From Nymphaea colorata (lineage: Eukaryota; Streptophyta; Magnoliopsida; Nymphaeales; Nymphaeaceae): DNA of 64,000 bases. The translations under genes were made by a program, and so were the position numbers. The notes below the pieces were generated by a model. It was not told the origin of the DNA. It made no database searches and was given only the letters and a program-made list of their open reading frames with translations. Every line of letters starts with the position of its first letter. The first letter of the stretch is position 1. Location of the stretch: the NCBI RefSeq assembly GCF_008831285.2, contig NC_045141.1, positions 22,660,742-22,724,741 of the forward strand. The letters are read 5' to 3'. This document shows, one piece after another, positions 20,425 to 64,000 of the stretch.

Positions 20425-21512
20425 CAGCGACGATCTAATGAAGTCCTTAAGTGTTGTATGGAATAAACATTTTTCATCTATCACAATCTTTGAGTAAGAA
20501 ATAATCCGACCGAATCTGTTCCCAAGTATCAGCCAGCATAGCAAAGACTGCAAGATCACATAATAAAAGAGGGGAATGCAATTTGGAACATGACACCTAA
20601 TCCGTTGAGCGCAGTTCAAAAGCTACCCAACTTATTAGAAGCTTATCAAATCCTCATGCTGATGTTTCCGGAGAAAAATAGAAAATTGAAGGAAGATGTA
20701 TAATTTACACCTGAGTTTCTAGCACAGTTAAAAAAGCAATATATGTTTTTGAAGTTTTTCAGATACCAACCATGGATTTTTTGTCTTCAGAAGAAGACCC
20801 AAGGAGCTTTCTAGTGTTGTAGAGTTTACTATTACCCACGGGCTTAGCATCCAGAGTTCGTTCTTGGCATAATCGAGGTAGTTCTCCGCTCATTTTCAGA
20901 TTACAGAATCCAAAAATGAGAGTAGTTACCTCGACAAACTTTTTCCTACAGCCTCGACTTGCGCTCAAAAACTTTTTCATCTTTATCGCCAAAATCAGGC
21001 GGTTTCTCGTTTACCTGCAACCAACCATCAGGTTTCTTTCAGCTAAAAATATCAGTCGGTGGGATGGTGACCGCTGCCCATGACTGCAGAAAATGAGGCC
21101 TTACGGACACCAACAGCCATCAATACAGAAGAGGTATGGTCCATAGTCTTTCAGCTCCTTCTTTGATGAAAGACACAACTGAAATTGGGAACCCTTCTGC
21201 TATCAAAACCTCATGAATGGTTGCCCTTGGAGTCGGGAACTACAGGGAGGAGGTAATGAAGACACGATAGAGAAGGGAGTCGACACTGGTGCTGGCGTAA
21301 GCTCTGTTTGAAGTCAATTCCGGCAGAAATATCATCTGTACAAGGGAAAGGAAAAAAAGATCATCAGTACATAGTCCAGAGTCAGAGAGGGCCTTACAGA
21401 ACCTCATCCTTCTTCTCCCCAACACTCACGCAGACCCGGCACCAACACGTTTGATAAGAAGGCACTCCTCCCTTCTTTGAGGAAAGAAAGAAGAGAGGCG
21501 GTAAGGATTGGA
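20425..21512. other. Promoter side of lipid-transfer-type gene A
   Basis: No coding sequence recognised. Frames here are short and lack family resemblance. Confidence 0.35.
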
Positions 21513-21524
21513 ATGAGAAGGGAG

Positions 21525-23514
21525 ATGGAGGGGGGAGCAGGAGGAAGAACCATGCTGGTGATGATGGTGGTGGCGGCGACGATGGTGGCATCCCACATTG
21601 GAGGGGTCGGAGGGCAGACGCAGGAGGACTGTGCTGCGAAGCTGATCCCCTGCATGGATGCCGTCAACAACACGTCGATGAAGCCGGGGAAAGAATGCTG
21701 TAGCGCCCTCGGCGACGCCATCAAGAACGAGCTGAAGTGCCTCTGTGCTCTCTACAACAGCTCGGGTATCCTAGAGAACTTGAAGGTCAACAAGACTCGG
21801 GCTCTCGAGATCCCCGGGTTGTGTGGACTCTCCAACGACCTCAGTCATTGCAGCTCTGGTATAGTTTCTTTTTTGAGGTTTTATTAGATGAAGATGAAGA
21901 TGAAGATGAACATGCTCTGCTCTCTCTCTACTGAATCTCTGGTGCTCTCGTTTGTCTTTGTAGCGGCATCTGTCCCCTCTCCACTTTCTCCGGAGACGCC
22001 AACTTCATCTCCAGGTTCTCTCTCTCTCTCTCCCTCCCTCTCTCTGTGTGGTGTGGCCTGAAATTTGAGTGGGAACCATGAAAAATGGGGGACAAGTTTC
22101 TGTTTTTTGTTCTTGATTGTCCGACAAATTGAGGGGAGGAGTGACGGTCCCATCACGTTATAAATTGGTCTTGAACTCGTTCTCTTCAGTAAAGCAGCAG
22201 CTGTAGCAGCAGGCCAGCAACCTTCTGCGGATGAGAAGCTTCTGGAACCTCTGGTTTTTCTCAACATTTTAGATCCCAAGAAACCACTCTTATCGATCAA
22301 CCGAAAACAGATAGTGAATGTCAGCGATGATGAAGGCGGTGCTAGCAGGAGACAGCTAAAGCAGTAATGGCTTTAGATTTAATTCTAGGGGCAGAGTAGT
22401 TGGTTATTTCTGTCCAGACTGCAACCATAAATAGCATTCAAAGTCTCTTAATTAATGCGATATGTATCACACGAAATGACTGCCATTGACGTTTTCTCCG
22501 GTAAATAAATAATTACAGTGAAAAAGGTTAGAAGCCCGGAAGCTGCGATCGGCTACTGACCTGTTAAGGAGTAGTAGAGAAGAAGATTGAAGTTCAACCT
22601 CCTACCTGGTTGATCCAAGCTTAACAAGTCTCCAAACCCGCATTGGGACACGAATTATGGGATTGCAGAGTCATTGTTTATGTCATACCAAAAAAAAAAA
22701 AACTTTCTTAGTTTTTTATTGGTGAGGTTTTTCTTGGATATTTTGTGGTAAAATTATTTTTTTTGAAAAAATGTAAGAAAAAAATTCTGAGTTTCTTATT
22801 AGTTAAAAATACAAGAAAGAAAAAACTAATAACTATTATATTGCATTTAGGAGCTCACATTAAATGCATTAAAACAAGAGAAAATACATAAATAAAAAAT
22901 CACTATAAATTGCAATGAATTGATTTTTAACTTTTTTTTTGTTTTCCAAATATGGCAAGGGAAGAAGAAGAGAAGAGGGATTCCTTCTTTACATCATCCC
23001 CATCTGCTAGTCAAGGCTTCTGCAAACCTATCAGTCTTAGTGTGTAGAAAACTGAGCCATCTTTCTTGGCTTCATGTAAAATTGACAATTGCATGTACAG
23101 GTGGGTGACGGGTGCCCGGCTCGATCGGGCCTAGGTTCAGGCTCCAAAAATGGTTCGGGTCGACCTGATAAGTTTTTAATATTTTTTTATTATAACCAGG
23201 CCGAACTGGAACAAGCCCGAGCTCTGGTTTCGGGCAGTAGGCCAGCCCAGGCTCGACTCTTATCGGGCCGAGCCGATGGCCAGACCTATTTGCATGGCCT
23301 TGCAGTTTTAGCGCGATGAGCATTCTTTGGCATGATTTACCTTGTTAATGGCAGCTAAGAAGAACTGCTCTTACCATTTGCTACTGTCACTCTAATGGGG
23401 TTTCTTATTGACACAGGTTCAGGTAAGCAGATCAATGGAGCTTTGAGGATAACATGGTCGTTAAAGCCATTGTGGACGCTTGGTTTTCTCTGGATGTCGC
23501 TCAATATGGCATGA
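21525..23514 (+). CDS. GPI-anchored lipid-transfer-type protein (8-Cys), copy A
   Basis: A non-specific lipid transfer protein of the GPI-anchored type (LTPG/xylogen-like, YLS3 kin), expected on the outer face of the plasma membrane or in the wall, where such proteins bind or move lipids for cuticle and defence. Exons 21525-21858, 21964-22014 and 23417-23514 give 160 residues. After a signal peptide (MLVMMVVAATMVAS) the eight-cysteine pattern is C-6-C-14-CC-12-C-1-C-25-C-8-C. Exon 2 is Ser/Pro-rich (PSPLSPETPTSSP), likely glycosylated; exon 3 ends in a hydrophobic tail (KPLWTLGFLWMSLNMA) fitting GPI-anchor processing. Both introns are phase 1, as in copy B. The ATG at 21,513 is also in frame and would add four residues; 21,525 was chosen as nearer the signal peptide. 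Intron 2 (1.4 kb) holds a repeat. Confidence 0.85.
23096..23288. mobile_element. Possible hAT-like short element in intron 2 of copy A
   Basis: A 193-bp GC-rich block with imperfect inverted ends (left TACAGGTGGGTGACGGG, right reverse-complemented TAGGTCTGGCCATCGG) and an almost exact 8-bp flank, ATTGCATG and TTTGCATG. The interior is made of CCCGG and TCGGGC words like those at positions 1-110. Size and flank suggest a non-autonomous hAT relative; one mismatch in the flank leaves doubt. Confidence 0.45.
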
Positions 23515-27381: not shown

Positions 27382-29325
27382 AGCTGAAGTTACCACCCAA
27401 CCCCTCATCCCTTATAATACATGGCAATTCACCGTAACAAGCTTTTAGCTCAGAAAAGCGAAAAGTTACCAACAGTCATTTGGTTCATGATAACAATGTG
27501 ACAAACAATCACCCAACTATAGCAAAATTTTCTTTAAAACACAATATAAATTCAATATTTCCTTGCTATATCTGTGACAAGGATCCAATTTAAAAGATCT
27601 TGATCAAAATGATATTATAAATAAATGCCCTCTTATGCATTTAATATTTCTTCGGCTACCTCTCTCATAGTTATGTCATTTTTTTTTACCCTACTCATTA
27701 AGTGGTCTAGTACTATTATTTTCCATGCTCTCGATGGTAAAAGATGAACATTTTGAAGAATGATTTCGTTTTATTTTTTTAGGGCAATTGGTCACCGGGA
27801 CCGATGCCATTGAAATCACTACCAGTGCTCCTGAAATCACTACCAGTGCTCCAACCATCTTATTAATACCAATTTGGGCTCGAGGCTGAATATAATATAC
27901 ATAAAGAACGGAATCCCATAGAATTCTACAAGCGATAATTTTTTTAATGCAGAGAACAACTCGTGCCCTTCGTCTGGACAACTCACGCTCGATGTCACTC
28001 AATTTGAAACCAAGATTACAGTAGAGAAAAGGGGAAAGAGAGAGAGTATAATGAACAGTTGGTTCAGTAATCTTAATTTAAGTTCAACAATGTTGAAGGG
28101 CGTTGGGATGATGAACATCTCAATAAATGAAGGGGGAGAGAGGAGACGGGCGGTGGGCGAGGCCCATGTGGATCCATTAATGCCGTCTGCTTAATAAATC
28201 CGAGGGGGCTGCTGCACTGCACTGCGCTCATGGAAGAAGAGATGAAGGCCTCTCCTCTCATGGCAGCTACGCGGCGACAAAAGATGCCGTCGCTTTGTGT
28301 ATTTTGTCATTTTTATTTATGGAAGAAGATGCATCTAACCGTGGGAAAGTTTTTAATCTTTTCTTGAAGGAAAATCAATGAGAGTTGGGAGTATAGTGTG
28401 AAAACCATCGGTTGGTTGGCCATATTATTTTTTTTCTGAATTCGACGCAACAAACATTTCTTCCTTTTTTTCCAAGTTTGCTTACAAATACAAGCAACCA
28501 TCACCATTAAAATTGTCAGTGAGATTTTGAATCAATTCAATTTAGTGGCGTTCCTCCAATATTTGTAACCCCACAATTAATGGGTTAGGCGTTGATTAAT
28601 AGTATGAACTCCCACTCAGTGGCTTATTAACTCGTTCAATGATTCCACGCTCTCTCCGGAGCATGTGAAAATATCCCAACGCCCATGCATTACAATAAAT
28701 GACGAGATTGGAAGCTAATTTACAACGCTCGTTTAATTATTCCACCTTCATTCTGGAGAACGTGAAATCCCCAACGCCCGTGGATCACATTAAGTGATGA
28801 AAGTAGAAATCGATTTATGATACCAACTTTGAACACTTCTCATGTAATTTTTCACAGCATGTTCAGCTTCGTTGCTTTTTTAAATATCAACGATATTCAA
28901 TTATAGTGAATTTCACAAGAGTTTTCTCCTCCTTTTACTCACTATTTGTTTCTTAAATTGGCCTGATATATTTTTTTTCCGAACATCTTTTTGAAGAACA
29001 GTGCGGAATTCTTCTGGGACAGAAAAAAAGTTTGCCAGGAGAGGGATGTGTGAGATGTGAACGCAAAGCAGGTGGGACAAGCAGAAGGCATGTCTACGAT
29101 GGACCCACCGCCATTTATTTGTGAGAATTCCCATGGCCGGCTGCCAATTACTGGTCATGGCTGGTCAAAATCCACAGCAGGGTTGAATTCGAGGCTGATA
29201 AATTCTGGAAGAAGTGGGCTGCTAGACGGAGGCTTCTTGTTTCCTGCGGAGCTGAGTGCAGAGCGAGAGAAGGAGAGAAGCGGAGATCTGTTATAAGGAA
29301 GAGAGGGCCTGAAGGGTAGGAGGAG

Positions 29326-31541
29326 ATGGGTTCGGTGTGGAGATCGATGGTGGTTCTGACGGTGGTGGCGATGGCGACAGCCATTGGAACGGTCGGCGCT
29401 GACGATCAACAGCTGACGGACTGCATTGGGCAGCTGGCTCCCAGCCTGCAAGGCTGCCTTGAGGCCGTTGGGGACCCGACGAAGAAGCCTTCGAGCGACT
29501 GCTGCAAGGGCGTCAACAACGTAGTGAAGAACCAGTTGAAGTGCCTCTGCACCCTCTACAACAATCCTTCCGCCGTCTCGTCCTACGGCCTCAACATGAC
29601 TCGGGTTCTCGAGATCCCTACCCTCTGCAAAGTCCCCGCTGACGTCTCCCTCTGCAAAACCGGTACCATCTCCACAGCCCCTCACTTTCTCTTTTTTCCT
29701 TCCTTCCTCCCCTCGTGTATGTGTGTGTTTGTGTGTTTTTTCTCTTTCTGGCTGTGGCGGTTTTGCTGCAGAAGATGAAGAGGCTTCTCTCTCTCTCTCT
29801 CTGAATATTATGTTGGTTTTGTTTGTCTCAGGCAACTCATCTACCCCCTCCAGCCACACCCCAGCAAAGTCTGCCCCTTCTCCAGCATCAGCCAGCGTGC
29901 CTGCCCCAACTTCAGGTCTCTCTCTCTCTCTCTATTTATATATCTCTCTCGTTTACATTATTAAGGAGATTTCCTGTGTGGAGTTTTAATAACACAAATC
30001 TTGCGCAATTACATTCTCAGCAGACCTGAACTTGAGTTTGTGGAGGCTGTAGTTTGGAAAGCGTTTGTTTAACCTTGAGATGCTCTGTAGCAATAGAGAC
30101 AGAGCTCTTGCAGACTTCAAGAAAGTTCTCCTAATTTCCTGTTATGTTGCACATTTTGATGCTTCTGAGAAAAGAAAAAAGAGGACCACTTCTTTCCTTA
30201 GTAAAAAAAAAAAAAGAAAATCTCTGCCCATATACGCTGGCTCAAGCCTCTGATCTCCAAGTGGAAACTCTACCACTTTGTAAACTTTGAGTTTATAAAG
30301 CTGCGATGTTTAAGAAGACGGGAAACTTAATCACATTTTCCTTGTTCTAATGCTTGCTATGTCACTAGTAAATAAAGGGGAATATAGAAAAATGGGGTCG
30401 AGAAAGGTTTTGAAAAGATCACATTAACCTAGGCAACGAGATCCTTGAAGCAGGTTTGTATCAGGAAAGAAATGAACAGTGGAAAAGCATACTTTAAAAA
30501 AGGTTGATGGGTTTTTGACAGTTAAAGATGTACAAAGAAGAAGAGGATAGAAGAGGCTCCTCTGTTAGAGTGTTTGGTTGGGGAAGCAAACGGGAATTCT
30601 CTTCATCCATGGATGTGGTTAGACGGATTAACTGCCATTGATGCTTTCTTTTTCCTTCTGTCAGTAATTCATTACGAAGCCTTCTCTTTGAGACTCCTTT
30701 CAGTCTCAGGGATCTCGAATGATCTGATCTGAGAGCTGATGAGCAGGTCACGGAGGCTTCTTCTTGCCTAAGTGACTTGGACGGGCCAGGCACCTTGTTC
30801 ATGAGCCATGTCCAGTCTGGTTTTTGCTTGTGGTCGTTTTACCTCTTAATGGTAGGAAGGTAGAAGGCCTTGTAGCCATGGCTGCTCTGCTTCATATCAG
30901 AATATCGAGCGGATCAAGCGGGTGATGATCTCAATGTGGCACAACGCTGTCTACGCCCACGCCTAATTAATGCTTCCTTAATTGGACGGCAGAAGCCAGC
31001 TGAGGACACACGTATGTGGTTCCTCGTGTGTTTCGTGTTGGGAGGACCACCCACTCCGCTGCCCATCTTCTCCTGTTTTCAAGAATATCATGGAATTCAC
31101 ACAGTAGTATAAAAAAATTCAGGTAGAGCGCCATTTCTGGACCTTAAGTTTTCTTTACTCCCAAAGTTAAAGAAGATCTTACCGTCCCAATTTGATCGAC
31201 AGTTCAAAGCATGACAACTGGCTCTTGGATTATTTTAGTTATATATTTGCCGAAGCTTTTCTGCAATGGATGAAATTTTAGAAATTTCAGACTGTTGAAG
31301 AATCTTACTTGCATTGCGCATCAAAAATAAAAGGGGCAAAAGAATGTGCAAATTAATTTCTAACTGTAATTGAAGAAATATGGACTGCTTCTAGCTTTTA
31401 ACTGGGTTTCTTGAACTCGTGACTGGTTTTACAGGTTCAGACAAGCAGACCAATGGCGCTTTGAGGTTGACATGGTCATTGAAGCCACTGTGGGCACTTG
31501 GTTTGCTGTGGGCATCGCTGTTGTTGAAGCCTTGGGCCTGA
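29326..31541 (+). CDS. GPI-anchored lipid-transfer-type protein (8-Cys), copy B
   Basis: Paralogue of copy A on the same strand 8 kb downstream, with the same expected role as a GPI-anchored lipid-binding protein of the cell surface. Exons 29326-29662, 29832-29915 and 31435-31541 total 528 bases, giving 175 residues. Signal peptide MVVLTVVAMATAIGTVGA, then C-10-C-14-CC-12-C-1-C-25-C-8-C: identical spacing to copy A except in the first loop. Exon 2 is longer and Pro/Ser/Ala-rich (SPASASVPAPTS), typical of arabinogalactan-type glycosylation; the tail KPLWALGLLWASLLLKPWA fits a GPI signal. Both introns are phase 1 at positions matching copy A, so the pair arose by tandem duplication. The start is the only ATG in frame directly before the signal peptide. 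Confidence 0.87.
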
Positions 31542-36430: not shown

Positions 36431-39400
36431 TCACTTGTCTCCTGCAAACTTGCCCATCATCTTGGCAATGACAGGTGCTACCTTGGGGTTTGATTGGTGC
36501 TTGGCTATGTTAGCTGGATTTGACATCACTGCATAAGAACAAGCAAACTTTGTTTGAGCACATCATACTGAAGTGAGATTTCACATTATGCTTATATGCA
36601 GTTTATGACGCAAAAGCCTTTAACAACAGTGAAAAAAAAAACAATGCATCTCGTCCGATTATTCAATTCAATGTTTTCCTACAAATATGAAATAAAAGAG
36701 AAACTGACTTCTCAAGGGAAAAAAAAGGAGAGCGAATAGTCCTACTGATGACCCAATTGTTTTGCCAACACAACATAAAATTCAGTTACGTTTAGCTCCT
36801 TCAGACACCTTTAAAATAAAATGGGGGAGCATGCATGCATCAACCAAGCATCTTTAGACAGCACAATACCAAGATAAATGTCGAATAGAAACTAACCATC
36901 TTGGAGAGCAGCCATGACCTCTGGGTCTTTAAATGCAGCCATCAATTCAGGGTCCTGCATGCAACAATCAACTCTTGGTTAGTGCCTGGCGATCAAATTA
37001 AGTGGTGCAGTTGACAAGATTTTGTGATATAGCACAGAAACAAAACCAAGAACCACCTACATTCAAAATCTTGCTCATGTCAATATTTGGCATTCCTCCA
37101 GGCATAGCACCGGGGAAACCTCCTGGCATTCCTCCAGGCATAGCACCGGGGAAACCTCCAGGCATTCCACCAGGCATCCCTCCAGGCATGCCACCAGGCA
37201 TCCCTCCAGGCATGCCACCAGTTGGCCTTCTAGGAGAGGACTGCTCTTGCTTCTTTGCTTTTTCATATGCAGCCTGGCAACAAAACAGACCACCAAACAC
37301 ATTCTCAGCAAACAACAAAGCAAATCTCTGTTATTGCTTGAAACTTAACAACTTAATCACCTGTGCTTCGGCTCTGCGACGTTGTCTCTCACGTTCTAGT
37401 CTTCTTTCCTCCCTTTCCTTATGTAAGCGCTCATATTTTCTATGATGTTCTTCAATTTTATGAGCATTAGGTTCAACCTGCAAGTGTCATGCCATAACCA
37501 AAGGAAACCAAATAAAAAACGATATTGAGAACTGAATTGACAAAGAAGTTTATGTTCATAATATTTTTCATCCATAGGCTACATCCTAATAGTTCAACTT
37601 TGATGCAACCATGTCTGATCATTAAACATCATACCTTCTTCAGTGTAGCAGCAATTTCCTCATCATAATCCAATCTTGAAGCAACATGAAGATCCTTAGC
37701 TGCTTCTTCCCACTGACCAAGCATTGCACGTGCCATGCCACGAGATTTGTAGCCTTTAGCAGAATCAGGATTTATCTGAGGAATTATGCTTCATAAATCA
37801 AGTGTACCGTCGTGCTGACATGAAACTAGGAGAAGAGACATATTTGAAACAGATTCTTTTCTGAACTTAAAGGCACAAACAATTGCCATAAATTTTACCT
37901 CCAAAGCTGCATTGGCATCTCGAATTGCAGCATTAGGCTTCTTCATTTTAATGTATACACTAGCTGTTCCAAATCATATATGTTAAGAAGTTTGTATCGA
38001 AACCATCAAAATACAGCAAATTACTAAAAGTAAAAGAACTCAAAGTTACATATATCATTGTAGAATCAGAAAGTAGACTGACCTCTAGTTGCATACATTA
38101 TCGCGGACGTGGGGTTTAATACAATAGCATTTGTCAGGTGATCAATGGCTTCTTCAAGGTTACCTGATAACAGTGAAACAAACAGAAAAAAATACGCTGA
38201 AACTGAATGGGACAGAAATAGGAAACAAGCAGAAACCAGATTGGTATATAATTACCTTCAGAAATCGCCTCCATAGCTTTTGCCTTTGAAATTTGGGATG
38301 CATCACGGCTTTCTTCAGTTACCTCAACAGATGGATCTCCCATCTAGAGAGAATGGTAGAATTAAACAAGCTGAGAACCAACAACTTTGAATACACAAGA
38401 TAAAGAAAACCAAAAATATGCATGTGCAACCTTGTAATAATATGTACAGTTTAAATTCTCACAATGAGGAAATTATTACCTTTTGAGGAGGATCATTGTC
38501 TGGCTCTACAGTTTCACCTTCTAGCTCAATATCTGACTCAACTATTTCAGGCTCTTCTTCATTTTCTTGGACATGAATACCCTCTTCTTCAAGGTCTTGC
38601 ATATCTTCATCACCTTCATCAGGCACTTGGCTTTTCTATTGTAACCAATCAAAAGTATAGTCCTCAGGAAAGAACAAAGATGGACTCCTTTGGTCAAGAT
38701 AAAAAATAGACAATGCATGATTATGACTTAAACATCATTCATATCTACATCGGTCCTTCGGAAGCAGTATCCCAGAACAATGTGTTGATATAAGACCAAG
38801 ATCAGCTTCTCTTTTTGGAAACAGAATAAAAAATGGGTTCAGTTTTTTCAGCAACCTAATAAAAAATCAATATACAACTCTGTAAATGCAGGTTGATATC
38901 TCCATCTAAAGAAAATCCTGGAAAAGCTATTTTGAGTTCTAAAAAATTATCATCGATATAAAACTACCATCACCATTGTTACAAGAAACCACAGTCTAAA
39001 GACTCTAAACAGTGGTTGATTTCAATTCTCTGTTTCTCCAATCCTTCATGTACAGGATGAAAGTTTGTATTCTCACTCTATTAATACAGATGCAAGGAGA
39101 AAATCCAAAAAAAATTCCATATGCATGATCTAGACTAAATACTGAACTACATCACATAAATGATAAACCAAAGTGCTTTCCAAGGCCTCACTCCTTCATC
39201 CTGCTGCAGTGAAGACAATGAATCAAATACAATTCAAAAGAACCAGATTACAATGGAGAAAGTTCCCATGGAAGACTAAGCATTGACGAAAATCTTTTTT
39301 CTTCATGACAGCTCAAACGTATCATCATCAGGCCCTTCCAATGACTCAAAGGCTGGGAACTTTAGAACTAGTCGAGCAATGCCAGTCTCTGGCTATGTAA

Positions 39401-43740: not shown

Positions 43741-43785
43741 GCCCAACTTGGCACGAAGTTGCCCAAAAAGATTTCTTAACAAGAT

Positions 43786-44391
43786 ATGGCTTCCTTGTGC
43801 ACATCCACACAGTTCTTCTCCCTCATCTTCTTAGCCACACTCGTTTGCTCTTCTGCTTCCACACACAGAAATCTCTTCCAAGTTGCCACAAACAAATTCA
43901 TTCTTAGCTCTTGCCGGGCGACGCGCTTTCCGGCTGCGTGCTACCGCTCACTTGGGTGCCATGCCAGAGAGGTCCAGCGCAGCCCAAGGAGGTTGGCCCA
44001 TGCCGCGCTCTCGGTGAGCCTAGACCAAGCCTTGTCTACATGTGCCCTGATATCTAAGCTGAAAGTGATGAACAAGGGATCAATGACTCATTGGGAGATT
44101 GGAGCCATGGGAGACTGCATTGAGAATGTGGGTGAGTCCATATATCTGACGAAGCAGTCACTCAAGGAGATGGAGGACCTGGGCAGCACCAACTGGGGGA
44201 TGCTGATGAGCGACCTCCAGACTTGGGTAAGCGCCGCCGACACATGTATGGACGGATTTGCTGGCGGCACCATGAATGGCCTTCTGAAGCAGGACATAAG
44301 GTCTAGTATTGAAGGGCTGGCTCAGATGACCAGCAATGCCTTGGACTTCATTAACAGATTATCTAACACTAGACAGGGCACCCTACCATGA
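43786..44391 (+). CDS. Pectin methylesterase / invertase inhibitor family protein
   Basis: A secreted four-helix-bundle inhibitor of the PMEI/C-VIF family, which binds either pectin methylesterases or acid invertases in the wall; the sequence does not tell which. Single exon, 201 residues, normal family size. A signal peptide (FFSLIFLATLVCSSAS) precedes the mature domain. The conserved cysteine pairs are visible: Cys43 and Cys52 (the usual eight-residue gap) in the N-terminal hairpin, and Cys111 and Cys154 joining helices. Further cysteines lie at 58 and 86. Family blocks include ALSTC, ALGDC-like GAMGDC, LQTWVSAADTCMDGF and the final helix ending LTSNALDF-like MTSNALDFINRL. The start codon directly follows the TATA box and begins the signal peptide. 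It is close to the group annotated as 21 kDa protein. Intact. Confidence 0.9.
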   Translation: MASLCTSTQFFSLIFLATLVCSSASTHRNLFQVATNKFILSSCRATRFPAACYRSLGCHAREVQRSPRRLAHAALSVSLDQALSTCALISKLKVMNKGSMTHWEIGAMGDCIENVGESIYLTKQSLKEMEDLGSTNWGMLMSDLQTWVSAADTCMDGFAGGTMNGLLKQDIRSSIEGLAQMTSNALDFINRLSNTRQGTLP

Positions 44392-49772: not shown

Positions 49773-49849
49773 CCTGTCAGGTTCTTAAAGCTTAGGTTGC
49801 AGCAGGAAAAAAGAAAACATAAGCAGTTACTTGATAAACACCCATTGTC

Positions 49850-50138
49850 CTTAGAGGGGATAATCCAACAAGCATTTTTCAGTTCAATGTTTGCATATTA
49901 GTTACTAACTTACAATACTTTTAAGCTTTTGACCAACACATTCAACCTTGGAGGGGTAATACAACGAGCATTTTTCAGATCAATGTATACCTATTAGTTA
50001 CGAACTTACAGTACTTTCAAGCTTTTGACCAACACATTCAGTCTTAGAGGGGATAATCCAACGAGCATTTTTCAGTTCAATGTTTACATATTAGTTACTA
50101 ACTTACAGTACTTTTAAGCTTTTGACCAACACATTCAG
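49850..50138. repeat. Three-copy tandem repeat, unit 95-98 bp
   Basis: GCATTTTTCAG recurs at 49,872, 49,970 and 50,065 within units of 95-98 bp. Each unit carries, on the minus strand, the coding end ECVGQKLKST (or a variant) and a GTAAGT-like donor, so an exon-intron boundary is present three times. Copies differ by several bases and are older than the neighbouring 73-bp duplication. Confidence 0.85.
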
Positions 50139-51118: not shown

Positions 51119-53117
51119 GTTAAACTATAAATCCTCCACCAGCACGTTGAAAGAGGAGTCTCTTAAGATTCCACATCCTTGTAAAATGTGTTAAGATATT
51201 TAATGTCCTTGTAACATTGAAGAGTCTCTTAGGATTCTATGTTCTAGTTAATATCCTTGTAATATGTGAAGCCTCCTAGGATTCAATATTGTAGTTAATA
51301 TCCTTGTAATATGTGAAGTCTCCCAGGATTCTATGATGTAATTAATGTCCTAGGATTCTACGATTGGAGACTGTTAGAATTCTGGAAATGGGATTATAAA
51401 TAGAGGCCGTGCAAACCATTTTGGCTATGACTTCTTCTCCTCAGCTTCTTCTTGTTTTCATTTTCCCTCTCTCTCTCTCTCTCTCTCTATCTTTCTGCGT
51501 GAGTGCTATTTTCTGGTTACAGATATTGGTGCTAGATTTCTATCATGGTATCAAAGCGCCAGGTTACGTTATCTCTACCTAACGAAATGCCAAAACAGGT
51601 ATGATCTGGTTAGAACTCTTTTCTCATCTTATCTCTATCCTGAATTTACTTTTCTCTTGCGTAATTCTTGCTCCTTTTTTTTCTTCTTGCTTACCTAAGA
51701 ACACATCTTGTTATATCGTCTCTTCTTTCCCTCTCATCTTCTACCTGTATACCCTTCCTTTCTGCTGTCATGGAAAACCTTTCGCATTCTGGCATGTCAT
51801 CAAGTTTTCTTCCTCACCTTATTACCGAAAAACTCAACCATGAGAATTTTCTGATCTGGAAAAGGCAAATCATGCCTTTCATAAGAAGTCAAGGCCTCTT
51901 TGGACATCTCGATGGTTCAACAAAGGCTCCACCAATATCCGTTTTGCAGGAAATAAAAAATGAGGCACGAGAAGTTATTGCCGTTCATGAAGACAACAAC
52001 CCTGAACATGCTGTGTGGATGAGACGTGACCAAAGTCTGGTTGCGTATATTTTGTCTACTCTATCTCAACAAGTGTTACTTTCAGTTTCTGATGACTGTA
52101 CTACAGAAGAATAATGGGAAACCCTTGCTGATACCTTTTCCCAAATATCAGAAGCTCGAATTATGTACTTAAAAAAAGAATTTTAGAATTTGAGCAAAGG
52201 TTCAACGTCTATCATGGATTATTTGGGGCGTATTAAAGTCGTCGCAGACCAACTTGATGCCTCAAGGAATAACATTTTTGATAAGGAAAAGGTGCAACAA
52301 ACCTTGAATGGACTTGGACATGATTATCATGCTTTTATTACAGCTCTTGAGGTCCTTTCTGTTCTGCCTTCCTTCAACGAACTACAAGGTAAACTTCTCC
52401 AACATGAAATGAATATGAAAAGAGTCATTGAAAGGACTGATCATGGGAACTCCCAAAATGTGTTGGCTATGAATGTAAAGTTTGGTAAGAGCTATGGGAA
52501 CTCCAATCATGGTGGTCATGGCATTCTACCAACATCAACATAACCAAGGTATGTCTCCTTTGGATACTTCAAGAAAAATATCAATTTGTTTTCAATGCAA
52601 CAAGAAAGGACACATGAAGGCACAGTGTTGGTTTAATCCTCAAAATAAAAACAAAGGGGTAAGACATGATTATAAACAAGGAGGACAAAGTTCTAAATCC
52701 ACCGCCGAAGATATGCAGCATCTATTGATGACCACATTCTCAAAAATGACTATAAAGCAAAATGAGCAGAGAGAATGGTTCTTGGATTCATGTGCAGCTA
52801 CCCATGTGACAGGAAATGCAGGTAAATTGACTAGATTGCTGAATGATGGAAAATCTCATCACATTATACATATTGGAAATGCACATATTCCATTGTCATC
52901 CTCATCTTTATCACTGTCTAATGTTGTTCTTGCTCTCAATATCAAAAAGCCATTTCTAAACTCATTGATGATACAAGCTCTTCTGTTGAATTCACACCTT
53001 CTTCTGTCTATGTCAAGGACCTCCAAACAAAGAAAATGTTCGCTAGAGGGGAGCGTCAAGGGAATATGTACGTCCTCAAGGAATGTCTACCCAAGGATTC
53101 ATCCACTTTTGATATAG
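51119..53117 (+). mobile_element. Truncated Ty1/copia LTR retrotransposon (fossil)
   Basis: A copia-type fossil that keeps only its 5' part. A probable LTR (about 51,119-51,545, starting TG, ending CA, with a TATAAATA element near 51,395) is followed by a primer-binding site of the initiator-Met tRNA type (TGGTATCAAAGCG), a gag region (about 51,770-52,650) with a CCHC zinc knuckle (CFQCNKKGHMKAQCW) and the start of the aspartic protease region (FLDSCAATHVTG). Integrase, reverse transcriptase, RNase H and the right LTR are absent; satellite sequence begins where they should be. Reading is interrupted at a few points. Not closely related to the second copia element, whose LTR and gag differ. 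Age cannot be taken from LTR comparison because only one LTR remains. Confidence 0.8.
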
Positions 53118-53139: not shown

Positions 53140-55497
53140 TCATAATGCGTCATCAGTGCATCACTTTTGATATATGGATGCATCAAGTTGGCCATGCATT
53201 TGTTGTGTCAATCAGTCAGCCATTTATTTCAATTTCAAACAATTGAAATTTTTAACTTCATGGAGGGTACGTTGCTTCATCAAGATCCTTGAGAAGTTTC
53301 CAAGTCTCACAAGACTGTTTCCCCTCTTGTTGTAGAGGGTTCATCGCAACTTTTGCGCACATAATGAGATGGTCACACATAAACTCCTAAAACTGACAAT
53401 TATACCGACGCATCAAGTTGGCCATGCATTGGTATTGCCAAACTCTAATTGACAATTTTCACTTGATAGGGGGGACGTTTTCCAACAAGATCCTTTTTGT
53501 GATCTTAGGTCCGACGGGAATGTTTCCCCTTTGGTTGTAAAGGGTTCATCGGATCTTTTGCGCTCACAATGAAACGATCATACATAACCTCTAAAAGTTG
53601 ACCATTATACCGATGCATCAAGTTGGCCATGCATTGGTTGTGTCATTCAGTCAGTCATTAATTTCTATTTCATCTAATTGAAATTTTTAACTTGATGGAA
53701 GGTACGTCGTATAATCAAGATCCTTCAACAGTTCCCAGGTCTCACGGGACTGTTTCCCCTCTTATTGTAGAAGGTTCATCGCATCTTATTCTATCATAAT
53801 GAGATCATCACACATAAACTCCTAAAACTGACCATTACACCAATGCATCAGGTTGGCCATGCATTCGTTATGTCTTTCAATCAACTAATCAATTCAATTA
53901 CATCAAATTAACATTTTTAACTTGATGGAGAGGACGTTGATTCATCAAGATCCTTGATCAATTCCCAGGTCTCGCGGGACTGTTTTCCCTTTTGTTGTAC
54001 GGAGCTCATCGCAACAAAACGATCATACATAACCTCTAAAAGTTAAAATTTTTTAACTTGATGGAAGATACGTCACATAATCAAGATCCTTCAACAGTTC
54101 CCAGGTCTCACGGGACTGTTTCCCCTTTTATTGTAGAGGGTTAATCGCATCTTTTTCGATCATAATGAGATCATCACACATAAACTCCAAAAGCTGACCA
54201 TTACACCAATGCATCAGGTTGGCCATGCATTCGTTATGTCTTTCAATCAGCTATTCAATTCAATTGCAACAAATTAACATTTTTAACTTGATGGAGAGGA
54301 CGTTGTTTCATCAAGTTCCTTGATCAATTCCCAGGTCTCGCGGGACTGTTTTCCCTTTTGTTGTACGGGGCTCATTGCAATGAAACGATCATACATAGCA
54401 TCTAGAAGTTAATTTTTTAACATGATCGAAGGTAAGTCGCATAATCAAGATCCTTCAACAGTTCCCAGGTCTCACGGGACTGTTTCCCCTCTTATTGTAG
54501 AGGGTTCATCGCATCTTTTTCGATCATAATGAGATCATCACACATAAACTCCTAAAACTGACCATTACACCAATGCATCAGGTTGGCCATGCATTCGTTA
54601 TGTCTTTCACTCAGCTATTCATTTCAATTGCATCAAATTAACATTTTTAACTTGATGGAGAGGACGTTGATTCATCAAGATCCTTGATCAATTCCCAGGT
54701 CTCGCGGGACTGTTTTCCCTTTTGTTGTACGGGGCTCATCGCAACGAAACGATCATACATAACCTCTAAAAGTTAAAATTTTTTAACTTGATGGAAGATA
54801 CGTCACATAATCAAGATCCTTCAACAGTTCGCAGGTCTCACGGGACTGTTTCCCCTTTTATTGTAGAGGGTTAATCGCATCTTTTTCGATCATAATGAGA
54901 TCATCACACATAAACTCCAAAAGCTGACCATTACACCAATGCATCAGGTTGGCCATGCATTCGTTATGTCTTTCAATCAGCTATTCAATTCAATTGCAAC
55001 AAATTAACATTTTTAACTTGATGGAGAGGACGTTGTTTCATCAAGTTCCTTGATCAATTCCCAGGTCTCGCGGGACTGTTTTCCCTTTTGTTGTACGGGG
55101 CTCATCGCAATGAAACGATCATACATAACCTCTAAAAGTTAAAAATTTTTAACTTGATGGAAGATACGTCGCATAATCAAGATCCTTCAACAGTTCCCAG
55201 GTCTCACGGGACTGTTTCCCCTTTCATTGTAGAGGGTTCATCGCATCTTTTGCACTCATCATTAGATGATCACAACTAAACTCCTAAATCTGACCATTAT
55301 GCCAATGCATCAGGTTGGCCATGCATTGGTTATGTCTTTCACTCAGCTATTCATTTCAATTGCATCAAATTAACATTTTTAACTTGATGGAGAGGATGTT
55401 GTTTCATTTACATCCTTGATCAATTCACTGGCCTCGCGGAACTGTTTCCCCTTTCGTTGTACAAGGTTCATCGCATCTTTTGCGCTGATAATGAGAC
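53140..55497. repeat. Satellite array, left block (366-bp higher-order repeat)
   Basis: Tandem array anchored by GGTTGGCCATGCATTCG and CCAGGTCTC. The first anchors (53,185; 53,415; 53,621; 53,851) are 206-230 bp apart; from 53,851 they are spaced 366, 364, 366 and 366 bp. CCAGGTCTC alternates between CCAGGTCTCGCGGG and CCAGGTCTCACGGG at steps of 136 or 134 and 230 bp, so the 366-bp unit is one full monomer of about 230 bp plus one shortened monomer of about 136 bp that lacks the GTTGGCCATGCATT segment. No coding frames. The left edge abuts the truncated copia fossil; the right edge is the insertion point of the second copia element. Confidence 0.93.
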
Positions 55498-55781
55498 TGT
55501 TAAAATAGATGTAATGGGGAACCGGGTCCATTTCTGGATCGGGTCCCATGGGGCACGGGTACCGAGGCCAGCTCGGTACCCTAGGCGGCATTCTTCTCTC
55601 CCTCCTATATAATCTTCACTTAAGTGTAATTGTGTGATTAAGTGAATATAATTTTTCTCTCTCCTAGGGTTGCGGTGTGCACCTAGGTCAGAGCTTCCCG
55701 TGGTTTTTTCCTCTTTCTGAGGTTTTTCCACGTATATCGTGTGTTCCTCTCTTCTTCTTTCGTGTGTTGCATGTTTCTACA
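55498..55781 (+). repeat. Left LTR of the copia element
   Basis: 284 bp, begins TGTTAAAATAG and ends TTTCTACA. A TATATAA element near 55,607 is the likely promoter core. Confidence 0.95.
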
Positions 55782-58700
55782 TGGTATCAGCCATGAGATC
55801 GTTCGGCTTCGTCTCGTATTTTCGTAGTCGCCCTTGCACCGCTGCCGCCTGCGCCGTTAGGGTTTCCCGCGCCGCCGCCATTGGGATCTTCTGCGCCGCC
55901 GCCGTCAGACGATCCAGCGCCGCCGCCTGTTGCCGCTTGTGACTTCCGCTGCCGTGGGTGTCTCCTTTTCCGCCGTCAGACGATCCAGCGCCATCCCATC
56001 TTTCCGCTGCCGTGGGTGTCCAGCGCCGTCACGCCTCTGCGTCGCCGCCGTCGGGCGATCCAGCGCCGTCGCCGACACCTAAGGTTCCGTGTGGTGCTGG
56101 TGTTTCAGCCGCCGCCGTGCTGTCTTGTTGCTGCCTGGTGTTGTGTCTGACTTGACTGCTTGTGATGGCGGAAGAGATTGCACCTAAAAGTGATATGGCC
56201 TTTGACGCGGGCAGCGCTCCCAAGAGCGAGATCTTGCCGGTTCAGGTCACGCCCATTCGTCTGACTAAAGACAATTATCTCTCTTGGTCTGCTGCTCTCG
56301 AGATTGGGATAACGAGCCGTGGTCGTCTTTCCTATATCACAGGCGACAAACCGGCGCCCAGCAAAACTGATCCTCAATGGGCGACGTGGGTGTTGGAAGA
56401 CAGTCAGGTTAAGGTGTGGATCATCAGCTCTGTGTCCGCTGATATTCAGCCTCTTATTCTGCAGAAGCCGACTTCGTTTGATATGTGAACTGTGCTTGCA
56501 AGGATGTATGGTCGCAAGAAAAGGGTTCTGCGTACGTATCAGATTAAACGCAGTATTTATTCTCTGAAACAGGGTGACCTGTCTGTTGCCTCCTTCTATG
56601 CAGCCCTGAAAACTAAGTGGGAGGAACTTGATTATCATGTGAATGATAACTGGGACTGTGGTTCTGATCATGCTCGGTACTGGGAAAAGGAATGGATGGA
56701 CCGGACGTTCCTCTTCCTTGGAGGCTTGCGTGATGAGTTTGAATCCATTCGGAGTCAAATTCTCAACTGTGATGAGATTCCTGGAATAGAAGATGTTTAT
56801 GCCAGAGTGGAATCCGAGGAACAAAGGCGTCAAGTGATGCAAATTGACCCCAGTCACGGGACTGGTCCCTCGGCCTTTGTTAGCCGTTCTTCTGTGTCTG
56901 GACCGCGCCCTGTTAGGCGATGTACACATTGTCACAAATCAGGACATTCTGTTGACTTCTGTTGGGATCTTCACCCTGAGAAGAGACTTGTTCGTGGTCG
57001 CCCTCCGTCTAGTCGGCGAGGTCCTCTTGTGCAGGACTCAACTCAGAGTGGTTCTTCAAGTGGTGAAAAATCGAGGCTTTTCCCTGATCAAATCAAGGAA
57101 CTACAAGCTTACATCAGTCGCCTTTCTACTACGTCAGAGGACACATCTACGTCTGATGGAGCTAAATTAGCTCAGGCTCTTGTTGCTACAAGTGATCAAG
57201 GTAATTCCTCTCCCGGTGATTGGATTGTTGACAGTGGGGCTACTCATCATATGACCGGGGACCCTAAGATGTTTCAAGAATACAAGTTGACTTCTGGGCA
57301 GCAGCGCGTTTCTATGGCTGATGGTTCTTCTATTTCTGTGGCTGGAAAAGGGAGTTTATCATTACTGAACAAATATTGTCTTCATAATGCCCTGCATGTT
57401 CCTAATATTCCCGTGAATTTGTTATCTGTCAGCAGTATTACCAAAGAGCTAAACTGTAATCTAATATTCTCTGCTGATCGTTGTTTACTGCAGGACTTGG
57501 GGACGGGGCAGAAGATTGGGATTGGTTCGGCTATTGATGGTCTCTACAGAATGCCAGTACAGGTTGCCTCTGCTTTGATTTCAGCCACCAGTGGACAGTT
57601 ATCTGACGTGGAGGACAGATCCGCTATTATGCGCTGGCACGAGAGACTTGGTCATCTTCCTTTTCAGTTGATTAAACAATTGTTTCCTAAGATGTTTCGG
57701 TCTGTTTCTTTGGACACCTTCGCCTGTGAAGTGTGTCAGTTGTCTAAGCATGTTAGGGCCTCGTACCCTATTTCGTTCAATAAAACCAGCCGTCCTTTTG
57801 CTTTGGTTCACTTTGATGTTTGGGGTCCTTCGGGAGTGCCCACCGGTCGTGGTTTTCATTATTTCATGACTCTTATCGATGACTACTCTCGTTGTACGTT
57901 CGTGTACTTGTTGAAAGAACGTAGTGAGGTTCCCGGCATTGTCAAAAACTTCGTTGCATTTGTTGAAACTCAATTCCAAACCCCTGTTCAGACCCTTCGT
58001 ACTGACAATGCTCGAGAGTATGTCTCCCTATCCCTTGATGACTTCTTGCGAAGCAAGGGTATTATACATGAAACATCCTGTAGCTACACACCTCCTCAGA
58101 ATGGCGTGGCTGAAAGGAAGAACCGTCATTTGTTAAATGTCACCCGGGCCATTATGTTTCAACGTCATGTCCCTAAGCGGTACTGGGGTGATGCACTTCT
58201 CACTAGTGCTCATCTCATTAACCGTATGCCTACTCGTGTGTTGAATGGTCATTCCCCTTATTCTGTTTTGTGGCCTAATCAGAGTCCCTAGCCTTTGACC
58301 CCTCGGGTGTTTGGGTGTGTTTGCTTTGTCCATGATCATAGTCCCACTCTCAAGAAACTTGATCCTCGGTCCATCAAAGCGGTCTTTTTGGGGTATTCCT
58401 CCACTCAGAAGGGATACAAGTGTGTTGACCCTAGCACTTCCAGAGTCTATGTCTCCAGGGATGTTACCTTTCATGAACACGAGGCATACTTTCCTGCGAA
58501 TCCTCTTCAGGGGGAGTGTTTAGGTGAGAGAGTGGACGAGTATTCTTCGCATCAGTTGATTCAGTTCACAGATTTCTTGGATTACACGGCTAGTTCTCCG
58601 AGTGTGAGTGTGGTTGACACAGTCAGTGAGGACAGAGACAGTCAGATGGAAGGGGGCCCTGTGGAAGAACAGTCCCGTGATCATTTGTTTGGTCAGGTAT

Positions 58701-60460
58701 ACAACAGGAAGAAGAATGATGTGATGGAGGTTGTTGATGTTACCAATCCCGATCTTGTGAGCTCCCCGGATGATCCAAGTCCAATGAATGAAGATCTTCC
58801 CATAGCCCTACGCAAAGGCACCAGGTCATGTACTTCTCACCCTATTCAGAGATTTATCTCGTATGCTAAACTCAGTAAAGACTACAAGTGCTTTATTACC
58901 TCTTTATCTATGGCTGTTATTCCCAGGTCAGTGGAGGATGCCAGGGAGGATCCCAAATGGCTACAGGCCATGACAGAGGAGATGGACGCCCTGGCAAAGA
59001 ACAATACGTGGGAGGTTGTTGATATTCCTAATGGAACTCACTTAGTTGGTTCCAAGTGGGTGTTTACTGTGAAGTACAAACCTGATGGCACTGTAGAACG
59101 CTATAAAGCTCGTCTTGTTGCAAAGGGGTTTAGCCAGAAATATGGGATTGACTATCTTGAGACGTTCGCTCCCGTTGCTAAACTGAAGACAGTAAGGGTC
59201 ATCTTAGCTCTGGCAGTACAAAAGAAGTGGAGCATGGACCAACTTGATGTCAAGAACGCCTTCTTGAATGGTCACCTTGAGGAAGAAGTCTATATGAGCA
59301 TGCCGCCTGGATATGCGCAGAAATGAAAGTGTTGTTATCTCAAGAAAGCATTGTATGGCCTCAAGCAGTCCCCTAGAGCGTGGTTTGAAAGACTAAGGGT
59401 TGTGATGAAGACTAATGGATATAAACAGGGAAATGGTGATCACACCCTCTTCATCAAGCAGAGAAATGGTCTGGTGAGCCTCCTACTAGTATATGTTGAT
59501 GATATGATTGTCACAGGTGATGACGAAGAAGAAAAAAGGAAGATGAAAGAAACGTTAGCTGCTGAATTTGACCTCAAAGATTTGGGTAAACTGAGGTATT
59601 TTTTGGGAATTGAGATTGCTAGATCTGAGACTGGTCTTGTTATGAGCCAAAGGAAATACACTTTGGACCTTCTAAAAGAGACAGGTAAACTGGGATGCAG
59701 GCCCTTTCTTACTCCAATGGAGTCTGGCACAAGGATAAGTATCAAAACTGGGACGATCTTGGATGAGGAAGGAAAAGGGAGGTATCAGCGGCTGGTTGGT
59801 AAACTCATTTATCTCACCCTTACTCGCCCGGATATTACGTATGCTGTGGGTGTGTTAAGTCAGTTTATGCATGCCCCTACTGATTGTCATTGGAAAAGTG
59901 CTGAAAGAGTATTGGGATACTTAAAGAATGACCCAGGGAAAGGACTGCTCTATACTCGACAAAGTCAACTCAGTATTGAAGGATACTCTGACGCCGACTG
60001 AGCAGGTTGCACAGATACTAGAAGGTCTACCACAGGATACTGCATCTTTCTTGGAGGTAACCTGGTGGTATGGAGAAGTAAAAGACAAGAAGTTTGTTCC
60101 AGGTCCAGTGCTGAGGCTGAATACAGGGCGGTTGCCATGGGGGTTACAGAAATGTTATGGCTCAAAATTCTGTTAGCAGATATTGGGGTGAAAATGGAAG
60201 AGAAGATGAGGATGTATTGTGACAACAAGTCGGCTATTAACTTGGCAAACAATCCAGTCTTGCACGACAGAACCAAACATGTGGAGATCGATCGCCATTT
60301 CATACGGGAACGCATAGATTCTAAGGAGTTGATCCTGCCCTACATGAAGTCTGAAGATCAAGTTGCTGATGTTTTAACTAAGTCTTTATGTACATCTCAA
60401 TTTGAGAAAAATGTTAGCAAGCTTGGCATGTTTGACATGTATGCCAAGCTTGAGGGGGAG

Positions 60461-60744
60461 TGTTAAAATAGATGTAATGGGGAACCGGGTCCATTTATGG
60501 ATCCGGTCCCATGGGGCACGGGTACCGAGGTCAGCTCGGTACCCTAGGCGGCATTCTTCTCTCCCTCCTATATAATCTTCACTTAAGTGTAATTGTGTGA
60601 TTAAGTGAATATAATTTTTCTCTCTCCTAGGGTTGCGGTGTGCACCTAGGTCAGAGCTTCCCGTGGTTTTTTCCTCTTTCTGAGGTTTTTCCACGTATAT
60701 CGTGTGTTCCTCTCTTCTTCTTTCGTGTGTTGCATGTTTCTACA
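60461..60744 (+). repeat. Right LTR of the copia element
   Basis: 284 bp, same ends as the left LTR and differing from it at three sites by eye. It follows a purine tract and is followed by the GAGAC duplication. Confidence 0.95.
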
Positions 60745-63700
60745 GAGACGAACACGAATAACCTCTTAAAACTGACAATTATACCGATGCATCAAGTTAG
60801 CCATGCAAAGGTAGTGTCAAACTCTAATTGACAATTTTAACATATGATGGAGGGAATGTTGCCTCATCAAGATCCTTCTGCATATCTCAGGTCTAACAGG
60901 ACTGTTTCTCCTCATGTTGTAAAGGGTTCATCGCATCCTTTACGTTCACAATGAAATGGTCATCACACATAACATCTTAAAACTCACCATTATATGGATG
61001 CATCAAGTTGGCCATGCATTTGTTGTGTCAATCAATCAGTCATTTACTTCAATTTCATCCAACTGAAATTTTTAACTTGATCAAGGGTACGTTTGCTTCA
61101 TCAAGATCCTTGAGCAGTTCCCAAGTCTCACTGGACTTTTTCCCATCCTGTTAAACTGACAATTATACCAACGCATCAAGTTGGCCATGCATTGGTATTG
61201 CCAAACTCTAATTGACAATTTTCACTTGATGGGGGGGGGACGTTTTCCATCAAGATCCTTTTTGTGATCTTAGGTCCGACGGGATTGTTTCCCCTTTGGT
61301 TGTAAAGGGTTCATCGGATCTTTTGCGCTCACAATGAAACGATCATACATAACCTCTAAAAGTTGACCATTATACCGACGCATCAAGTTGGCCATGCATT
61401 GGTTGTGTCATTCAGTCAGTCATTAATTTCTATTTCATTCAATTGAAATTTTTAACTTGATGGAAGGTACGTCGCATAATCAAGATCCTTCAACCGTTCC
61501 CAGGTCTCACGGGACTGTTTCCCCTCCTATTGTAGAGGGTTCGTCGCATTTTTTTCTATCATAATGAGATCATCACACATAAACTCCTAAAACTGACCAT
61601 TACACCAATGCATCAGGTTGGCCATGCATTCGTTATGTCTTTCAATCAGCTATTCAATTCAATTGCATCAAATTAACATTTTTAACTTGATGGAGAAGAC
61701 GTTGTTTCATCAAGTTCCTTGATCAATTCCCAGGTCTCGCGGGACTGTTTTCCCTTTTGTTGTACGGAGCTCATCGCAACGAAACGATCATACATAACCT
61801 CTAAAAGTTAAAATTTTTTAACTTGATGGAAGATACGTCACATAATCAAGATCCTTCAACAGTTCCCAGGTCTCACGGGACTGTTTCCCCTTTTATTGTA
61901 GAGGGTTAATCGCATCTTTTTCGATCATAATGAGATCATCACACATAAACTCCAAAAGCAGACCATTACACCAATGCATCAGGTTGGCCATGCATTCGTT
62001 ATGTCTTTCAATCAGCTATTCAATTCAATTGCAACAAATTAACATTTTTAACTTGATGGAGAGGACGTTGTTTCATCAAGTTCATTGATCAATTCCCAGG
62101 TCTCGCGGGACTGTTTTCCCTTTTGTTGTACGGGGCTCATTGCAATGAAACGATCATACATAGCATCTAGAAGTTAATTTTTTAACATGATCGAAGGTAA
62201 GTCGCATAATCAAGATCCTTCAACAGTTCCCAGGTCTCACGGGACTGTTTCCCCTCTTATTGTAGAGGGTTCATCGCATCTTTTTCGATCATAATGAGAA
62301 GATCACACATAAACTCCTAAAACTGACCATTACACCAATGCATCAGGTTGGCCACGCATTCGTTATGTCTTTCACTCAGCTATTCATTTCAATTGCATCA
62401 AATTAACATTTTTAACTTGATGGAGAGGACGTTGATTCATCAAGATCCTTGATCAATTCCCAGGTCTCGCGGGACTGTTTTCCCTTTTGTTGTACGGGGC
62501 TCATCGCAACGAAACGATCATACATAACCTCTAAAAGTTAAAATTTTTTAACTTGATGGAAGATACGTCACATAATCAAGATCCTTCAACAGTTCCCAGG
62601 TCTCACGGGACTGTTTCCCCTTTTATTATAGAGGGTTCATCGCATCTTTTTCGATGATAATGAGATCATCACACATAAACTCCTAAAACTGACCATTACA
62701 CCAATGCATCAGGTTGGCCATGCATTCGTTATGTCTTTTACTCAGCTATTCATTTCAATTGCATCAAATTAACATTTTTAACTTGATGGAGAGGACGTTG
62801 TTTCATCAAGTTCCTTGATCAATTCCCAGGTCTTGCGGGACTGTTTTCCCTTTTATTGTACGGGGCTCATCGCAATGAAACGATCATCCATAACCTCTAA
62901 AAGTTAAAAATTTTTAACTTGATGGAAGATACGTCGCATAATCAAGATCCTTCAACAGTTCTCAGGTCTCGCGGGAGTGTTTCCCCTCTTATTGTAGAGG
63001 GTTCATCACATCTTTTTCGATCATAATGAGATCATCACACATAAACTCCTAAAGCTGACCATTGCACCAATGCATCAGGTTGGCCATGCATTCGTTATGT
63101 CTTTCAATCAACTATTCAATTCAATTGCATCAAATTAACATTTTTAACTTGATGGAGAGGACGTTGATTCATCAAGATCCTTGATCAATTCCCAGGTCTC
63201 GCGGGACTGTTTTCCCTTTTGTTGTACGGGGCTCATCGCAACGAAACGATCATACATAACCTCTAAAAGTTAAAATTTTTTAACTTAATGGAAGATACGT
63301 CACATAATCAAGATCCTTCAACAGTTCTCAGGTCTCACGGGACTATTTCCCCTTTTATTATAGAGGGTTCATCGCATCTTTTTCGATCATAATGAGATCA
63401 TCACACATAAACTCCAAAAGTTGACCATTACACCAATGCATCAGGTTGGCCATGCATTCGTTATGTCTTTCAATCAGCTATTCAATTCAATTGCATCAAA
63501 TTAACATTTTTAACTTGATGGAGAGGACGTTGTTTCATCAAGTTCCTTGATCAATTCCCAAGTCTCGCGGGACTGTTTTCCCTTTTGTTGTATGGGGCTC
63601 ATCGCAATGAAACGATCATACAAAACCTCTAAAAGTTAAAAATTTTTAACTTGATGGAAGATACGTCGCATAATCAAGATCCTTCAACAGTTCCCAGGTC

Positions 63701-64000
63701 TCACGGGACTGTTTCCCCTCTTATTGTTGAGGGTTCATCGCATCTTTTTCGATCATAATGAGATCATCACACATAAACTCCAAAAGCTGACCATTACACC
63801 AATGCATCAGGTTGGCCATGCATTCGTTATATCTTTCAATCAGCTATTCAATTCAATTGCATCAAATTAACATTTTTAACTTGATGGAGAGGACGTTGTT
63901 TAACCAAGTTCCATGATCAATTCCCAGGTCTTGCGGGACTGTTTTCCCTTTTATTGTACGGGGCTCATCGCAATGAAACGATCATACATAACCTCTAAAA
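60745..64000. repeat. Satellite array, right block, continues past window end
   Basis: The same satellite resumes inside the monomer that the copia element split. Anchors at 60,794, 61,005, 61,179, 61,385 and 61,615 are short-spaced older monomers (174-230 bp); from 61,615 the 366-bp unit runs at 61,982, 62,345, 62,712, 63,079, 63,444 and 63,810. The last three short-spaced anchors and the start of the 366-bp run repeat the left block with a constant offset of 7,764 bp. At least six 366-bp units are present and the array is cut by the window. Confidence 0.93.

Follow-up and report, generated by a model that had tools for sequence, protein, structure and literature searches.

The satellite array at the right end of a 64,000-bp window of the Nymphaea colorata genome (assembly GCF_008831285.2, contig NC_045141.1, positions 22,660,742-22,724,741, forward strand) has a real higher-order repeat (HOR) of 366 bp, and the unit of this HOR consists of a full monomer of 230 bp and a short monomer of 134-136 bp. 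The short monomer is probably a mosaic, judging from the way in which its similarity to its neighbours changes along its length. We lean towards a history in which an out-of-register exchange, a trimming deletion, unequal exchange, a block duplication and a later insertion of a copia element together made the array. All counts given below for the array come from this single locus, and the repeat copies there are not mutually independent.

Tandem Repeats Finder (TRF) detected the period of 366 bp in two runs, at 53,684-55,475 (4.9 copies, 93% matches) and at 61,449-64,000 (7.0 copies, 94% matches). The window contains 19 copies of the motif CCAGGTCTC (17 inside the array) against an expectation of 0.32, and none of 100 shuffles reached 19. 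The regular alternation of spacings of 230 and 134-136 bp, reported by the first-pass annotation of this window, was seen in all 21 intervals within the HOR runs (8 in the left run and 13 in the right; one mismatch allowed). The units are arranged head to tail, with four complete units in the left run and six complete units and a cut one in the right run, and the ten complete units, to which the comparison was confined (the row starting at 55,197 being excluded), have pairwise identities of 92.6-99.5% in the unit alignment. The identity between short and full monomers is about 84% in the head and 74-76% in the tail, far below that between units, as expected of a HOR. The full monomer that ends the left run, at 55,197, is more diverged, with 90.9% identity to the full consensus, which was built without it.

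The first-pass annotation had described 53,851-64,000 as a single array. However, the HOR begins at 53,735 rather than 53,851, monomers recognizably related to it begin at about 53,171 by BLAST, and 55,498-60,744 is a copia element, so that 5,247 of the 10,150 bp of that interval, just over half, are not satellite. Without the copia insert, the satellite is an unbroken stretch of about 5.6 kb from about 53,171 to the end of the window, which cuts the array on its right side; the satellite continues past this edge. With BLAST on the window (E 0.001), three monomer queries had no match outside the array, and searches with Rfam and ARAGORN gave 0 matches and 0 genes, respectively. The features of the array, all on the + strand, are as follows, and individual monomers and units are referred to below by their first positions.

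53,171-53,734, +: left flank of diverged monomers, 53,171-53,299 (partial), 53,300-53,504 (205 bp) and 53,505-53,734 (230 bp) (BLAST, alignment, tree).
53,735-55,196, +: left HOR run, four complete units of 364-366 bp starting at 53,735, 54,101, 54,465 and 54,831 (TRF, spacing, unit alignment).
55,197-55,497, +: diverged full monomer at 55,197-55,426, then the first 71 bp of an unshortened monomer split by the copia element (alignment).
55,498-60,744, +: Ty1/copia long terminal repeat (LTR) retrotransposon of 5,247 bp, with LTRs at 55,498-55,781 and 60,461-60,744 (LTRs, GAGAC, Pfam, stops).
60,745-61,499, +: second target-site copy at 60,745-60,749, remainder of the split monomer at 60,750-60,886, and three flank monomers (alignment).
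Flank monomers after the copia element, +: 60,887-61,120 (234 bp), 61,121-61,269 (149 bp) and 61,270-61,499 (230 bp) (alignment).
61,500-64,000, +: right HOR run, six complete units starting at 61,500, 61,866, 62,230, 62,596, 62,962 and 63,328 (TRF, spacing, unit alignment).
Seventh unit of the right run, +: starting at 63,694 and incomplete at the window end (TRF, spacing, unit alignment).

The two classes of monomer had been described as carrying diagnostic variants and were expected to form two clades. The variants are present in most monomers but are not invariant: CTCACGGG was found in 11 of the 12 full monomers and TTGTAGAGGG in 8, while CTCGCGGG was found in 9 and TTGTACGGGGC in 8 of the 11 short monomers. 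The full monomer lacking CTCACGGG (62,962) has the short-class CTCGCGGG instead, which indicates that the classes exchange sequence or that mutations arise in parallel, and the two short monomers lacking CTCGCGGG (62,826 and 63,924) have CTTGCGGG. In the tree reconstructed from the 134 columns kept in the short monomer, the 10 complete short monomers formed one branch (support 96/92) and the 12 full monomers another (88/81, under the level starred by the tool). The partial monomer 53,171-53,299 was excluded from the trees, and the cut short monomer 63,924 was kept out of the monomer alignment, the trees and the consensus, although its diagnostic sites were counted. No mixing of the classes was seen in this tree, but neither part of the monomer resolves both classes when taken alone; the full monomers do not form a single branch when only the first 48 columns are used, and the other 86 columns leave the short monomers unseparated from two flank monomers.

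The short monomer had been described as lacking one stretch of about 94 bp. The total is indeed 94 bp, but in the alignment it is divided into two gaps of 15 and 79 bp (81 bp for the second gap in the two 134-bp short copies), and the HOR unit thus includes a truncated monomer. Since both gaps are present in all 10 complete short copies, they should predate the amplification; the cut eleventh copy also has the 15-bp gap. In three of the 10 short copies (55,061-55,196, 62,826-62,961 and 63,558-63,693) there is a perfect 16-bp palindrome, GTTAAAAATTTTTAAC, at the 79-bp gap, for which no role is claimed.

Undeleted relatives of the short monomer are present within the same array, as the alignment showed. 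The 134-column tree joined the short branch to the 230-bp flank monomers 53,505 and 61,270 (99/98), and with the 86 columns of the body and tail the short monomers and these two were on one branch (100/99), while grouping of the short monomers with the split monomer was rejected by the approximately unbiased (AU) test (p 0.019). At eight sites the short consensus agrees, among the flank monomers and 55,197, with 53,505 and 61,270 alone; five of these eight sites are invariant in the full monomers and three are variable in some of them. The derivation of the body and tail of the short monomer from a 53,505-type monomer is well supported by these comparisons. The head behaves differently. At the sites where the split monomer differs from 53,505, the short consensus agreed with them in a ratio of 7:4 in the head (2 sites with neither) and 1:21 in the rest, and where the full consensus differs from 53,505 the ratios were 7:2 (1 with neither) and 0:19; comparison of the full consensus with the split monomer gave no contrast (6:4 in the head, 9:8 in the rest). 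The affinity switches at some point from column 48 to column 69, a stretch that holds the 15-bp gap. In the head tree, which is weak, grouping of the short monomers with the split monomer was compatible with the data (AU p 0.416), and there is weak support for a 48-bp head that resembles monomers other than the 53,505 type.

Several points weigh against a mosaic origin of this kind. The Fisher values for the contrast between the head and the rest (p 0.0005 for the split monomer, p 0.00003 for the full consensus) are rough because the compared sites are few and neighbouring. A head tree joining the short monomers to 53,505 and 61,270 narrowly escaped rejection (AU p 0.0506, likelihood difference 1.10). 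No single donor of the head stands out, with identities of 41/48 to the full consensus, 39/48 to the split monomer and 36/48 to 53,505; only at columns 10 and 36 does the head agree with the split monomer and no other flank monomer, and at column 10 the full monomers also vary among themselves. Lastly, the number and order of the events are inferred from one locus.

The array was probably also duplicated on a larger scale. Among the seven flank monomers (one partial), 18 of the 21 pairs have identities of 69.5-84.5%, and the three twin pairs are 53,505/61,270 (97.4%), 53,300/61,121 (91.8%) and 53,171/60,887 (91.5%). Monomers 53,505-53,734 and 61,270-61,499 each lie directly upstream of a HOR run. 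The HOR block with its flanks is present twice in tandem, with a period of 2,511 bp before the copia insertion, and 53,390-55,475 is 96.3% identical to 61,153-63,240 over 2,088 bp. When the units of the two runs were paired colinearly, the mean difference was 2.05%, which was equalled or bettered by 3 of 840 assignments including the observed one. The pairing is imperfect in that the 54,831 unit has 9 differences from 63,328 but 13 from 62,596, its partner, and the differences between the blocks climb steeply past 55,190. The right run is longer in units than the left, so that the counterpart of 55,197 may lie past the window. An alternation of units giving a 732-bp period was also considered and is not claimed, 4 of 24 orders of the left units and 250 of 5,040 orders of the right units being equally good.

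The element at 55,498-60,744, overlooked in the first-pass annotation, was identified as Ty1/copia by its LTRs and Pfam domains. It has direct LTRs of 284 bp with 3 differences, a GAGAC target-site copy on each side, and the integrase ahead of the reverse transcriptase. The sequence TGGTATCAGC just after the 5' LTR is similar to a primer-binding site. Its frames matched Pol_BBD, gag_pre-integrs, rve, an SH3-like domain and RVT_2 in Pfam, the gag model was marginally below the cut-off (23.7 versus 24.1 bits), and the last frame matched no Pfam family. The satellite monomer split by the insertion is found at 55,427-55,497 and 60,750-60,886. With 3 differences in 284 bp between the LTRs and up to 7.4% between the HOR units, the insertion appears recent relative to the HOR. 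The LTRs are nearly identical, yet the main frame contains four in-frame stops, suggesting that the element may have moved by means of the proteins of other copies or decayed quickly. Separately, a second, truncated copia-like gag region was found at 51,665-53,117 (Retrotran_gag_3, 24.3 bits against a cut-off of 24.1), with its end about 50 bp ahead of the first recognizable satellite monomer at 53,171, and the left edge of the array may have formed at or in this element.

The first-pass annotation had proposed an ancestral monomer, a deletion in one copy and amplification of the pair. The class separation in the 134-column tree and the unshortened relatives within the array agree with this outline, but a history with a single deletion is too simple for two gaps, a probable mosaic, two copies of a parent-like monomer without the deletions, and a block duplication that came later. 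In the history that we favour, an out-of-register exchange would have fused the two neighbours of a full monomer, the next monomer giving the head and the previous one the body, with the joint at the 15-bp gap, and the product would have been a tandem pair of full and hybrid monomers of 445 bp. A 79-bp deletion would then have trimmed the hybrid before amplification, shortening the pair from 445 to 366 bp, after which unequal homologous exchange could have multiplied the pair and a larger exchange could have duplicated about 2.5 kb comprising the HOR block and its flanks; the copia element would have inserted last. The order on the left side, 53,505, the full monomers and then the split monomer, is as the exchange model predicts. 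The events can be put in a likely order at this one locus (exchange, deletion, amplification, block duplication, retrotransposon insertion) because a full-length monomer of the parent type persists directly before the HOR run, twice. More tentatively, the array might be a near-complete record of the birth of a HOR, holding the hybrid and the amplified products together with the parent-type monomer and the partner of the latter, all within about 6 kb of satellite; the pair and the start of its amplification would then go back to one and the same illegitimate exchange, at the 15-bp gap. The origins of HORs are usually erased by homogenization, and, if this record is genuine, comparison of the locus among relatives would time each step.

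The exchange could be dispensed with if one diverged monomer of the 53,505 type, not a hybrid, had lost bases in two steps and been amplified with its full neighbour. The fit of the body and tail to 53,505 is common ground, the head-only grouping with 53,505 is not firmly rejected, and the head differences could be mutations predating the amplification; this is nevertheless unlikely, given that the short consensus goes against 53,505 in the head (7:2 with the full consensus, 7:4 with the split monomer) and not elsewhere (0:19 and 1:21). A real mosaic could also have arisen by gene conversion of the head by a neighbouring full monomer after the pair existed. It is the full consensus that is most similar to the short head, and the short-class variant in 62,962 shows that class exchange or parallel mutation takes place, but the head states at columns 10 and 36 favour the split monomer over the full class and the switch of affinity at the 15-bp gap would be left unexplained, and we regard conversion as slightly less probable still than a history with no hybrid.

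Two further explanations concern the array as a whole. Spread of the 366-bp unit through a function, for example by matching two nucleosome lengths (2 x 183 bp) in the chromatin of centromeres, draws on the arithmetic of 366 and on the formation of HORs by centromeric satellites in other plants, as described in passages of PMC4053949; it is very improbable for a visible array of a few kb that shares the window with gene-like frames having LTP (lipid-transfer protein), PMEI (plant invertase/pectin methylesterase inhibitor) and HAD domains. We ascribe no function to the array, and passive satellite turnover is most likely. An assembly error behind the block duplication or the order of units would account for near-identical units across the blocks (2 differences for 54,101/61,866 and 3 for 54,465/62,230). 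However, 95 of the 2,110 aligned columns distinguish the blocks and are unevenly distributed, their flank monomers differ by a deletion (205 versus 149 bp), and the insert between them has matching target-site copies, which makes such an error scarcely credible.

Satellites of the same kind of structure are known. According to the parts of Melters et al. 2013 (PMC4053949) that we consulted, clear HORs were found in 76 of 171 species with Sanger data, and those of switchgrass, centromeric by fluorescence in situ hybridization, consist of four B1 monomers and a truncated one (792 bp) or of six and a 53-bp remnant (1,131 bp). In these, as in the array here, complete and truncated monomers together form a plant repeat unit; the likeness is structural, but on the evidence of those parts the switchgrass HORs are a direct precedent and the class of repeat is already known. 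Unlike the switchgrass units, the unit here has one full and one short monomer in 366 bp, and the surviving undeleted parent and the mosaic are not described in the passages on switchgrass in that paper (PMC4053949). The AB dimer of Sorghum, as presented in the same parts (PMC4053949), likewise has two alternating, tree-separated monomer classes with the pair as the unit; it is exactly twice the monomer length, whereas the second monomer here is 94-96 bp shorter. Circular DNA has been discussed as an intermediate in satellite amplification, and plant HOR satellites yield circles in multiples of the unit, according to passages of PMC2543021; multiplication of HOR-length units by homologous recombination, as in those passages, is a candidate route of amplification here. 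Five pieces of 17-18 bases from the monomers were unmatched in the texts of papers, a weak negative as consensus sequences are often given in figures or supplements, and this does not show that the satellite is undescribed.

Elsewhere in the window, a lipid-transfer-protein-like frame lies at 29,320-29,775 (LTP_2 match in Pfam), a frame similar to a lipid-transfer protein, by eye only, at 21,375-21,884, and a PMEI domain (Pfam) at 43,780-44,388. With its LTP_2 and PMEI domains and copia elements, the window has the gene content of a plant. A tandem repeat of 12/24/36 bp at 37,089-37,221 (TRF) reads on the minus strand as a Gly-Gly-Met-Pro run. The run is reminiscent of the co-chaperone HIP/ST13. 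A separate tandem repeat of 97 bp was found at 49,849-50,138 (3.0 copies, 89% matches; TRF).

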